A stretch of 64,000 nucleotides of DNA from Opitutia bacterium (lineage in GTDB: Bacteria > Verrucomicrobiota > Verrucomicrobiia > Opitutales > Opitutaceae): assembly GCA_016187925.1 (NCBI GenBank), contig JACPIS010000037.1, positions 124,001-188,000 on the forward strand, in the 5' to 3' direction. The translations under genes were made by a program, and so were the position numbers. Below are positions 59,347 through 63,133 of the stretch, in pieces. A model generated the notes under the pieces. It made no database searches. It was not told where the DNA came from and worked only from the letters and a program-made list of their open reading frames with translations. Each line of letters begins with the position of its first letter. Within the stretch, counting starts at the first letter, position 1.

Positions 59347-61173
59347 TTACTCGCCGGACTTCTTGGCGGAGCGCTCGGCCTTGCGGCGCTCGACATCCTT
59401 GAGGATGCGCTTGCGCAGGCGGAGGTTTTTCGGCGTGACCTCGACGAACTCGTCGGCGGCGATGTATTCGATCGAGCGCTCGAGCGAGAGCTTGGTTGCA
59501 GGCGTGAGGCCGGCGGCGACGCCTTCGCCCTGGGAGCGGAAGTTGGTGAGCTTCTTCTCGCGCACGGCGTTGACGGAGATGTCCTCGTTGCGGGGATTCT
59601 CGCCGACGATCATGCCTTCGTACACTTGCTCGCCGGGATTGACGAAGAGCTTGCCGCGCTCCTGGCACATGACCAGGGCGTAGGAAGTGGTCTCGCCGGC
59701 CTCGGTGGCGATGAGCGTGCCCGTGATGCGGGTGAGCACCTCGCCGGCGTAGGGGCCGTATTCCTTGAACAAGTGGCTGAGCACGCCGCGGCCGCTGGTG
59801 GCGTTGACGACGTCGATCTCCATGCCGATGAGGCCGCGGGTGGTGATGGTGGCCTCGATCATGGTGGAGTGCGGGAGCTTCTCCATGTTGGTCAGCTGGC
59901 CCTTGCGGTTGGCCAGATTCTGCATGATGGCGCCGACGCACTCGTCCGGGATCTCGATCCAGACGGTCTCGTAGGGCTCCAGGCGTTTGCCGTCGACGAC
60001 CTTCTCGATGACGGTCGGGCGGGAGACGAGGAGCTCGAAGCCCTCGCGGCGCATCGTCTCGACGAGCACGGCCACCTGCATGGCGCCGCGGGCCTTGACG
60101 TTGTAGACGCCGGCCTTGTCGGAGTCCTCGATGTAGATGGAGACGTTGGTCTTCAGCTCGCGCATAAGACGCTCGCGCAGCTGGCGGGAGGTGACGAGCT
60201 TGCCTTCCTGGCCGACGAGCGGGCCGTCGTTGACGCAGAACTGCATCTCGAGGGTCGGCGGGTCGATCTGGGTGAAGGGCAGGGCGTGGGCTTCCTCGCG
60301 GACGTCGAGCGTGTCGCCGATGTCGACATCCTCGAAGCCGGAGAGACCGACGATGTTGCCGGCGGAGGCCGACTCGACCTCGCGCTGGCCGAGGCCGGTG
60401 AACTCGAAAATCTTGGTGATCTTGGCGCGCACGCGCTTGCCGTCGGAGTGGCGGACGACGAAGACGGGATCGCCGACGTTGACCTTGCCGCCGAGGATCT
60501 TGCCGACGGCGATGCGGCCCACGTAGTCGCTCCAGTCGATGTTGGAAACGAGCATGTGGAACGGCTCGTCGGGCTTGGCGAAAGGAGGCGGGACGTGCTC
60601 GATGATGGTTTCGAAGAGGGGCGACATGTCCTTCTTCTCCTCGCCGAGGTGATACATCATGTAGCCGTCGCGGCCGGAGCCGTAGACGACCGGGGCGTCG
60701 AACTGCTCCTCGGTCGCATTGAGTTCCATGAGGAGCTCGAGCACCTTGTCGTACATCTTGGCCGGGTCGGCGTTCTCGCGGTCGATCTTGTTGATGACGA
60801 TGACGACCTTGAGGCCGTGGGCGAGAGCCTTGCGGAGCACGAAGCGGGTCTGGGCCTGGGGGCCGTCATAGGCGTCGATCACGAGCAGCACGCCATCGAC
60901 CATGCGGAGGGCGCGCTCCACCTCGCCGCCGAAGTCGGCGTGGCCGGGGGTGTCGAGGATGTTGACGATCTTGTCCTTCCAGTGGACGGAAGTGTTCTTG
61001 GCCTTGATGGTGATGCCCTTCTCCTTCTCGAGGTCCATGGAATCCATGGCGCGTTCCTCGACGCGTTGGTTGGCGCGGTAGACGCCGCCTTCCTTGAGGA
61101 GTTTGTCGACGAGGGTGGTCTTCCCGTGGTCGACGTGGGCGATAATGGCGATATTGCGGATGTTCTGGTTCAT
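59347..61173 (-). CDS. typA: Ribosome-associated GTPase TypA/BipA
   Basis: Translational GTPase of the BipA type, acting on the 50S subunit during assembly and stress. The G domain starts at once: [20 protein letters not shown] (G1), the switch region [27 protein letters not shown] (G3) and [12 protein letters not shown] (G4). Domains resembling EF-G II, III and V and the BipA-specific C-terminal domain ([38 protein letters not shown]) follow. The length of 608 is standard. The ATG at 61173 is chosen; an upstream extension of 124 codons runs through a terminator-like hairpin and is not coding. Confidence 0.97.
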
Positions 61174-61291
61174 GCCGGGCGGCTCGTTGTGATGCGGAAA
61201 AAGGGTCACGGTGCGGCCCGGGTTGATGCTTGGCAAGAAGGAAGCTGACCAAATCCAGCACACCGCCCAAATCCCACCCCGCCAAGCAGAA

Positions 61292-61376
61292 AACCCCTCA
61301 CGGACAGCGCGCCGGGCCGGGCTAAGGGCCGAGGTTCCGGGCCTAAAGGGCTGCCCGGCGCGCTGCCAAAGGGGTT
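61292..61376 (-). terminator. Large two-part hairpin in the typA upstream region
   Basis: An outer 7-bp stem (AACCCCT at 61292-61298 with AGGGGTT at 61370-61376) encloses a perfect 13-bp stem (CAGCGCGCCGGGC at 61305-61317 with GCCCGGCGCGCTG at 61353-61365). On the minus strand the 3' arm runs into GGGGTTTTCTG. It may be a second terminator behind the RNA candidate or a structured typA leader. Confidence 0.6.
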
Positions 61377-61379
61377 CTA

Positions 61380-61419
61380 TAAAAAGAATAAGGCCCGGGG
61401 ACCTTGCGGTCTCCGGGCC
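61380..61419 (-). terminator. Intrinsic terminator of a minus-strand transcript upstream of typA
   Basis: On the minus strand the stem GGCCCGGAGACC-GCAA-GGTC continues as CCCGGGCC (61392-61419; one A-C mismatch) and is followed by TTATTCTTTTT. Since no protein gene lies just upstream, it implies a non-coding transcript. Confidence 0.88.
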
Positions 61420-62270
61420 AAATTCGGGGGTGGGCGCTCGCCACGCGCTCTTTCCCGTTCGCACCACGTTTGGCGCTCTCGCCGAATGGCGGGCCAGGTG
61501 CTTCCCGACGCTACTCACCGCGGCAGGCGATGATTTCGGTCTCATAGCGGGACCGTTCCGACCCTTTCAGACCGGAATCTCTCGAGTGAGGCCTCTACGC
61601 CCGGTTCGGTGATCATCTGCCGATGATTCGCTCGCCGGACGGGTGCTGGCACGCCTTCAAGTATCTTTCGCACCGGCACCTTGACCACGGGGACGGCCAC
61701 AGTTTTTGGCTGTGCGTTGGCCCCGTGCGACGGGTCTGACCTCTTACCTCTCAGGCTGCGTTTGACTTGGAGTTGGGTGACGCGTTTTTCGCGCCGCCCC
61801 AAGCTTGGAAGGCTGGCGGGTTGTTGCCTATCCCGCGCCGCTCCACGCCGCGCCGTGTCCCTTGCGCGCCCAGCCAGTTGCGCCAGCCGGGCCTTTTGGA
61901 GGGTGCGACCCCTCCCGAACACGTCGCTGCGTCCTGGTCGTGCAGTAGCAGCCATAACCCTCTGGGTAACTGCATCAGTGCAGGGCCCGAAACAGGCCCT
62001 GGACCTGACTCGGCTCGGACGCGGTTTCTGATTTCGCGCCTGGCCGCACAGCTCCTTTGTCGCATGAACTGGATCGGTTGCGACACCGTCCAGAGGAACT
62101 GGTGATATATGCCTGTGCGTGGCTTGCGCCACGGAGGGGTGGACCGCACCAGTTGCGGTCGACCTTTCCCCGGTTGCCCGGGATTATCCCAGCCGCGCTC
62201 TCAGCGGGTTTTTCATGCCGCCGCGCTGCGACTGTTCTATCAAGGAACGAGTAGGAAAATGCGGTTTCTC
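61392..62270 (-). ncRNA. Candidate structured non-coding RNA, about 0.9 kb
   Basis: No reading frame in this block looks like a protein: the longest frames are low-complexity, Arg/Pro/Ser-rich and lack a start with a ribosome-binding site. Stable local hairpins are frequent. Examples are 62118-62133 (CGTGGC-GCAA-GCCACG on the minus strand), 62169-62182 (CCCGG-GCAA-CCGGG), 62142-62160 (GACCGCA/TGCGGTC), 61981-62001 (CAGGGCC/GGCCCTG), 61898-61915, 61686-61727 (nested) and 61612-61627. GNRA-type GCAA loops occur only when read on the minus strand, which agrees with the minus-strand terminator at its end. Signatures of tmRNA, RNase P, SRP RNA, 6S and group I/II introns were looked for and not found. 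The 5' end and promoter are not defined; boundaries are approximate. Confidence 0.5.
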
Positions 62271-62318
62271 CTCTGAAAGTCACGGGTTTGTTGCCCACAT
62301 CTTCTTCACCGGCGCGGA

Positions 62319-62366
62319 GCGGTGAATAACTTGTGAGCGACATTTGCCTCACCGGTTATTCACCGC
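62319..62366. repeat. Perfect 12-bp inverted repeat with nested stem
   Basis: GCGGTGAATAAC (62319-62330) and GTTATTCACCGC (62355-62366) flank a nested GTGAG/CTCAC (62333-62337 and 62348-62352). Each outer arm contains TTATTCACC, one base away from a DnaA-box consensus. It could be an operator or a transcript-end hairpin for the gene at 62507-63133; no T-run is present. Confidence 0.55.
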
Positions 62367-62506
62367 AACGGACGCGCGGCGCATCCCTTGCAACTGCCTC
62401 ATTTGGGCGGCAGTTGAGGGTCCGCCGACAGGCCTGCGCGCTGCCCCCGCGGCAGGTCGGTGCATAAGTTTGCCACCCGGCACGACGCGATTTCTTCGGG
62501 TCAGTT
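62367..62506. other. Intergenic stretch with a small hairpin
   Basis: Between the inverted repeat and the glycosyltransferase-like gene, a 7-bp stem AACTGCC/GGCAGTT (62392-62398 and 62409-62415) is the only structure noted. No gene or promoter was recognised. Confidence 0.4.
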
Positions 62507-63133
62507 TTACCTCTCTGCCAACAGGCCTTGCGCCACTGCCCGATGCCAGTCGGTTAGCGTGTCGACATCGTCGGCCATCGGCAGCTCCGCCAAACTCAAT
62601 CCGCCGCGGCGGATGTGCTCGCGCGTTTGGCCCAGCACGCTGGCAGTGCTCCAGGCGATGCCGGCAAACAAGCCCGGCTGCGGTGCGCGCAGTCCGATCA
62701 GATAGTAGCCGCCGTCGGTCGCCGGCCCGAGGACCACGTCGGCTTGCGCGAGCGCGCGGTCAGCCGAGCGCAAAAGCGCGGCATCCAGCGAGGGACAGTC
62801 GCCGCCGAGCGCGATGACCTTGCGCGCTCCGTGATGGCGGAACGCATCAGCGAAGGCGTCGGCGAGACGCGCCCCGAGGTCGCCCGCGCATTGCGGCTGG
62901 AAGTCGAGCGGGGCGTGGGCGAGCGGAGCGAGCCACGCGCGCATCGCCGGCCCCGCCTCCGGCGGATCGTAATAGACGACGGACCGGTGCTCGCCCGGGA
63001 GTGCCCCTATCTGTCGCTCGACCAGTTGGCGGTAGATGGCGCACGCCTTCGCCGCGCCGATCTCGGCGGCCAGCCGCGTCTTCACCGCGCCGGCGACGGG
63101 CGCCTTGAGCAGCAGGGCGAGGGCGGTGGTCAT
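62507..63133 (-). CDS. TIGR04282-type glycosyltransferase-like protein (DUF2064)
   Basis: A 208-residue protein of the DUF2064 group. It has the nucleotidyltransferase-like start LALLLKAPVAGAVKTRLAAE (the KTRL motif), the metal-site segment VIALGGDCPSLDAALL, and VVLGPATDGGYYLIGL. Family members have a GT-A fold, and TIGR04282 proteins are often encoded in arsenosugar biosynthesis loci. The actual sugar donor is unknown. The start overlaps the stop of the upstream DUF547 gene (ATGA), so the two are coupled. Confidence 0.82.
   Translation of the reverse strand: MTTALALLLKAPVAGAVKTRLAAEIGAAKACAIYRQLVERQIGALPGEHRSVVYYDPPEAGPAMRAWLAPLAHAPLDFQPQCAGDLGARLADAFADAFRHHGARKVIALGGDCPSLDAALLRSADRALAQADVVLGPATDGGYYLIGLRAPQPGLFAGIAWSTASVLGQTREHIRRGGLSLAELPMADDVDTLTDWHRAVAQGLLAER

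Follow-up and report, generated by a model that had tools for sequence, protein, structure and literature searches.

The window, by which we mean the whole stretch of 64,000 nucleotides analysed here, contains a minus-strand gene for a MISL RNA (Rfam RF03079) upstream of, and in line with, the typA/bipA gene (Table 1). Upstream of the RNA gene are 2 other genes (DUF2064 and DUF547), followed by a gene which, judging by its protein sequence, we take to be hrpB. Such an hrpB-like gene, read away from MISL, was found upstream of it in a cluster of 29 loci. It was also noted that a strong GC-rich hairpin is located at 61305-61365, between the MISL terminator and typA, one 13-mer arm of which occurs 13 times in the genome compared to 4 times for the reversed control. 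Several relatives have a similar sequence after MISL, and the hairpin is possibly a dispersed repeat or a leader element of typA.

Table 1. Features of the MISL locus, in window positions.
Feature	Position	Strand	Basis
typA/bipA, next gene downstream of MISL	59347..61173	-	Pfam BipA_C
MISL RNA gene as redefined, about 869 nt	61380..62248	-	Rfam match, 5' domain and terminator-like hairpin
Terminator-like hairpin, GCAA loop, T-rich tail	61380..61425	-	Inverted repeat I4 and pattern scan
Part matched by RF03079 (model 1-751)	61433..62189	-	Covariance model
5' domain beyond the Rfam model, 59 nt	62190..62248	-	Conservation and covariation
Putative -10-like element CATTTT, degenerate	62256..62261	-	Promoter-like pair scoring
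Putative -35-like element GTGACT	62278..62283	-	Promoter-like pair scoring
Element GGTGAAGAA(GATGTGGGCAAC)	62302..62310	-	Profile common with dnaA loci
DnaA-box-like site TTATTCACC	62321..62329	-	Motif
Second box TTATTCACC, 35 bp from the first	62356..62364	+	Motif

Identity and borders of the RNA

The initial annotation had proposed an undescribed structured RNA of about 0.9 kb on the minus strand at 61380-62270, to be checked by an Infernal search against Rfam and by covariation among homologues, and to be regarded as described if a known family was hit. The search against all Rfam models gave a single strong match, which was the only one at the gathering level in the 64-kb window. It covered the complete RF03079 model with a score of 489.6 bits (E = 1.2e-148) at a gathering cut-off of 274.6 bits, so that the identity of the block as a MISL RNA is near certain and the claim of novelty falls. 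None of the models for OLE, ROOL, and GOLLD gave a match in the window. The large folded minus-strand RNA upstream of typA is supported by the covariance model, the folding energy, and covariation in a 5' hairpin. The minus strand of 61380-62248 was predicted to fold with -400.1 kcal/mol (z = -5.27), an energy as low as which was reached by none of 20 dinucleotide shuffles, and the plus strand with -404.4 kcal/mol (z = -4.29). Since both strands fold well, energy alone leaves the strand undecided, and the assignment to the minus strand rests on the Rfam covariance model. Minus-strand GCAA loops, which the initial annotation had also reported, were recognized by eye in the terminator, CCGGGCAACCGGG, and GUGGCGCAAGCCAC.

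In the window's family, conservation continued for about 59 nt past the 5' end of the Rfam model, as seen in an alignment of 45 MISL copies with their flanks, from which the low-scoring copies G011a and G011b of genome G011 were excluded. This 5' domain consists of a nearly invariant segment, GUUC(C/U)UUGAuaGAAC, followed by a long covarying hairpin with an A-rich loop. Paired cells amounted to 96.4% in 34 copies (31 of them distinct) compared to 90.6% after shuffling, and changes on both sides were observed in 8 of 17 pairs, with 24 such cells compared to 5.8 in the shuffled data. Neither of these values was reached in any of 500 shuffles. The count leaves out the 11 distant copies that are unalignable in this part as well as G011a and G011b. 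Pairing fell to 19% to 54% in a slide test in which the partner was moved by 1 to 3 columns, although this test is biased towards the 5' structure, which had been derived from the fold of the window itself. RNAalifold independently recovered the main hairpin, with both-sided changes in 7 of 12 pairs, and missed the small first helix formed by GUUC and GAAC, which shows no covariation because it is nearly invariant. The proposed check for covariation thus gave a covarying hairpin in the 5' domain of the 34 copies.

At the 3' end, an inverted repeat at 61386-61425 with a tail to about 61380 forms a terminator-like hairpin, which corresponds to the minus-strand terminator of the initial annotation. 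The pattern scan taken by itself was at chance level, with 2 such hairpins found and a shuffle mean of 2.0. Among 47 copies, 43 have a hairpin with a T-rich tail after the RNA, compared to 203 of 940 shuffled stretches, the exceptions being G032, G011a, G321, and G362 (the counts for 47 copies, here and for typA below, take in the below-cut-off G011a and G011b). The 5' domain and the hairpin together suggest a transcript from about 62248 to 61380, which would start near the GUUCCUUGA element and end at the terminator. The exact 5' end is placed near 62248 from conservation and promoter spacing. The borders in the initial annotation agree better with this predicted transcript than those of the Rfam model do. 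Compared to RF03079, the gene as drawn here extends 59 nt further in the 5' direction and includes a terminator, and a synthetic MISL RNA cut to the Rfam borders would miss the conserved 5' hairpin.

Evidence for transcription was obtained from the IMG/VR contig L231 (1-2347), in which MISL is followed in the same sense by the start of an ssRNA-phage genome. The 5' end of this MISL is cut off: cmscan matched it from model position 144 with 254.5 bits, which is below the gathering score, and the alignment is clear to about model position 610. The phage part contains a maturation gene (Phage_mat-A, E = 7.1e-28) and a next frame in which Levi_coat was matched only at E = 0.032, and its nearest record was the ssRNA phage Gerhypos.1_43, with 51% identity. 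Because ssRNA phages have no DNA stage, L231 should derive from RNA. The contig most likely arose by template switching or by a misassembly that involved a MISL transcript, the alternative being a true recombinant, and either way it indicates that the MISL of a relative is transcribed in the predicted sense.

Distribution of MISL

Matches to MISL at E = 1e-5 were identified in 25 of 57 genomes that included the window's own genome and its relatives, 22 of which were over the Rfam cut-off, and in 30 of 387 genomes across the phylum, 27 of which were over the cut-off. A conserved 17-mer was found in at least 116 stretches from named genomes, and 114 of the 116 listed carry MISL according to the profile. 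L116 and L169, titled Chromatiales and Lachnospiraceae, respectively, were set aside as chance pattern matches without MISL. Plasmid and phage records gave no MISL match, and a plasmid- or phage-borne RNA was rejected for this reason. Eight pattern matches in viral contigs (L251-L258) had no MISL inside. Two weak matches of 103 and 40 bits in genome G011 (L071 and L072), one of which is still near typA, appear to be decayed or strongly diverged copies.

No recurring family of partner genes emerged from the 19 of 28 nearest neighbours that were scanned for 15 copies outside the typA setting, with the exception of a Mur ligase found in both G055 and G209, which belong to one genus.

Upstream boxes and the dnaA control region

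The region upstream of MISL is conserved across copies. The promoter-like pair in Table 1 is degenerate, and a scan of 61100-62700 with a consensus of the sigma-70 type gave 0 promoters. In 31 of 45 copies, the best promoter-like pair nevertheless starts 34 to 37 nt upstream of the 5' anchor, and the mean of the best score per copy is 6.69 of 12 compared to 5.59 after shuffling, which lends modest support to the putative promoter as drawn (G011a and G011b were left out here, as they were from the comparison of gaps and coding potential below). By eye, TTGACA or TTGACT was seen at the -35 position of several distant copies.

The boxes upstream of MISL have the form TTATTCAC(A/C), that is, TTATTCACC or TTATTCACA. 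There are 53 of them in 9,000 nt (200 nt from each of 45 copies) compared to 3 in 689,104 nt of flanks, an enrichment that is relative to mostly coding DNA and not to other intergenic DNA. TTRTTCACM was present within 220 nt of 41 of the 45 copies, and 3 control motifs were found 0, 1, and 0 times upstream, the single hit being TTATGCACM. Since the motif had been noticed before it was counted, the count was repeated on 62 further loci, which are relatives of the first set and not unrelated lineages. These 62 were what was left of 117 loci after removal of 24 that were too close to a contig end, 20 that lacked the 5' anchor, and 11 that had already been counted. We found 76 boxes in 12,400 nt compared to 2 in 380,192 nt, with TTRTTCACM in 54 and TTATTCACM in 49 of the 62 loci. 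Four control motifs gave 0, 5, 0, and 0 hits upstream. The 5 hits were to TTATGCACM, which was found 0 times elsewhere and may represent further drift of the same box. The 8 loci without TTRTTCACM contained TTATCCAC in 3 cases, another variant in 2, and none in 3.

The window's own 4.0-Mb genome has 6 exact copies of TTATTCACC, 2 of which are in the window, and 4 of TTATTCACA. Among its remaining TTATTCACM sites, which were also examined, the site in L109 comes nearest to the module described below. This stretch, L109:1480-1800, carries a TTATTCACA box and is preceded by a gene that we presume from its sequence to be panC-like. It gave no Rfam match at E = 0.1 and could be a third promoter of the kind seen at MISL and dnaA.

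A second MISL in the same genome (G000b; C44, 502.5 bits) is located beside a signal peptidase gene. This copy and 5 others, namely G002, G201b, L131, L145, and L149, contained no box, and in a tree of 102 sequences, which excluded G011a and G011b, they formed one clade with a support of 0.997. G113, which also has no exact box, was placed outside this clade. Both classes are present in 4 genomes (G000, G201, and 2 assemblies, JAEUGX01 and JANXWT01). The clade is deep, which favours an old paralogue over a recent copy.

The same box was found in front of dnaA: TTATTCACA is located about 50 to 65 nt before the gene in 8 of 11 genomes (L099 covers only 49 nt upstream), and one of the 4 TTATTCACA sites in the window's own genome lies just before dnaA. 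A profile of the control module was built on the upstream regions of 31 of the 45 MISL copies. The sequences searched with it comprised 11 loci of dnaA, the flanking DNA of the 45 MISL loci, 14 other upstream regions of MISL, and 7 other box sites. The 6 best matches were to 6 dnaA loci, in each of which the match lies 300 to 385 nt before dnaA and has the same orientation, with E values of 7.7e-5, 4.8e-4, 7.3e-4, 0.021, 0.037, and 0.33, 3 of which were below 0.001. The sixth was closely followed by a distant MISL upstream region (E = 0.55) and by the stretch in L109 (E = 0.56). The matched loci represent 6 of the 8 with enough upstream DNA, the 3 others of the 11 being too short to contain the site. 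The window's own dnaA locus (L095) and that of G362 (L105) gave no match to the profile at E = 10, although the module in L095 is apparent by eye. Distant MISL upstream regions were hardly reached by the profile, with 2 weak matches.

The spacing is also similar. By eye, GTGAA is 26 nt from a -35-like TTGAAA in the 6 dnaA regions shown, of 7 examined. In the window, the GTGAA of the corresponding element begins 26 nt upstream of the -35-like hexamer, and the stretch from the element to the -35 aligned without gaps in all 31 MISL copies, of which 26 have kept GTGA and 19 GTGAA at this column. MISL and the dnaA region in this clade thus have a module in common, and this likeness in sequence supports a regulator common to both. 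There is no fixed distance between the 2 genes: in 9 genomes examined by hand they are separated by about 4% to 44% of the chromosome, and a location next to dnaA was rejected. It was further noted that dnaA seems to have a leader of about 300 nt after the shared module in L108:1180-1540 and at other dnaA loci, with stretches that look conserved by eye.

Proposed control and function of MISL

DnaA boxes follow the consensus TTWTNCACA, and the E. coli dnaA promoter is under the control of DnaA itself (PMC5835720). For E. coli, this source plots apart a set of boxes of the form TTATNCACA with N = C, A, or G, from which T is omitted. The boxes in the window end in C and have one mismatch to TTWTNCACA, and the TTATTCACA boxes of several distant relatives fit it exactly. 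Like the E. coli dnaA and mioC promoters (PMC5835720), MISL has DnaA-box-like sites before the gene. It differs from them in its box, which is TTATTCACC in the window, and in that its sites are predictions from sequence alone.

We lean, with slightly better than even confidence, towards a stand-alone structured RNA with a synthesis coupled to the dnaA regulator, which is most likely DnaA. A non-coding RNA of about 869 nt would be transcribed from the minus strand, from its own promoter to its own terminator, under a control module placed just upstream of the -35. This predicted module consists of AAGTTATTCACC, about 10 nt, GGTGAAnAAnTTGTG, about 10 nt, and the -35, with further TTATTCAC boxes. 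A module that appears to be built in the same way precedes dnaA in the same bacteria, and hence one regulator most likely sets both. DnaA is the natural candidate because of the likeness of the boxes to TTWTNCACA and the autoregulation in E. coli, and the simplest arrangement would be DnaA acting on the predicted boxes. The production of MISL may then keep pace with the initiation of replication or with growth rate. Activation fits better than simple blocking, because the boxes are upstream of the -35, and would be the probable direction of control. By analogy with OLE, ROOL, and GOLLD, the finished RNA may act as a folded RNA, being a scaffold or an assembly rather than a message, and a regulatory or scaffold role can be envisaged. 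We would go further only tentatively, at somewhat short of an even chance, and regard MISL as a replication-cycle RNA of the Verrucomicrobiota that is driven by DnaA or the regulator of dnaA, with a module gained and lost together with the RNA and a second class of paralogues without the module.

The MISL family was already known in Rfam and reportedly stems from the 224 candidate RNAs of Weinberg et al. in 2017; the boxes and the dnaA-like module are new here as far as the open-licence papers searched show. Large structured bacterial RNAs are, to our knowledge, few and mostly without a known function. Our search of the open-licence literature gave no paper on the function or biology of MISL, only chemical mapping of windows of MISL, and no description of a dnaA-like module or a box-less class. 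The dnaA-like control region gives MISL a first testable role: the shared module suggests when the RNA is made and raises a concrete question on how replication or growth is controlled. OLE, ROOL, and GOLLD are large, highly folded non-coding RNAs with a poorly understood function (PMC12286853), and MISL resembles them in size class, heavy folding, and non-coding nature. It differs from them in that it gave no Rfam match to their models and was not matched in plasmid or phage records. CcnA, a Caulobacter non-coding RNA acting on regulators of the cell cycle (PMC8959179), is similar to the proposed MISL by description only.

The module common to MISL and dnaA may instead be bound by another regulator, such as a growth or stress factor, which we regard as a real possibility though not a probable one. 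This would be in line with TTATTCAC(C/A) not being the best DnaA box and with a longer element in the module (TTGTG..AAnAA) that goes beyond the 9-mer box. However, TTATTCACA fits TTATNCACA and lies directly before dnaA, the site of the known DnaA autoregulation in E. coli (PMC5835720), and some MISL copies carry TTATCCAC or TTATGCAC, the change in TTATCCAC being one that the TTATNCACA site allows.

A regulator shared with dnaA was also compared to a view of the module as mainly a site for titration or reactivation of DnaA, similar to datA or DARS, with the RNA as a partly independent neighbour. The boxes, which are on both strands and away from dnaA, would fit such a site, but the spacing between the GTGAA element and the -35 is maintained, which fits promoter control, and both the RNA and the module are absent upstream of typA in 9 genomes without MISL. 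For these, typA was found over the cut-off in 9 of 10 MISL-less genomes searched, and the DNA upstream of it contained no MISL and no match to the module profile below E = 2.8. A looser box pattern gave TTGTCCAC sites in 3 of the 9 loci, none of which was TTRTTCAC. An hrpB-like gene was present in 2 of the 9, at 159 bp (L243) and 1.1 kb (L247) from the typA match. We consider the titration site improbable.

That the block is a long leader or riboswitch at the 5' end of typA is more doubtful still. MISL and typA are on the same strand and their order is conserved, with typA 3' of and in line with MISL in 30 of the 47 copies within the stretches retrieved (G011a included). This reading is disfavoured because MISL has its own terminator-like hairpin, because the distance between MISL and typA varies from 182 to 4,771 bp, and because typA was not matched in the DNA retrieved around 16 of the 47 copies, some of these stretches being short. 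A 17th copy without typA is G000b, the second MISL of the window's own genome, which has only a distant typA paralogue (28.6%), located upstream, and was left out of the typA count.

Finally, a short conserved protein, suggested by long open frames on both strands and by a longest stop-free run among 30 relatives of 269 codons compared to 222 in one shuffle of each, can be dismissed as very unlikely, since the median longest run of 166 codons is near the 146 of shuffled sequences in this GC-rich DNA and 595 of 628 gaps in the pairwise alignments with the 30 relatives have a length that is not a multiple of three. By this comparison of sequences the block is non-coding, as the initial annotation had supposed when it saw no credible protein gene.
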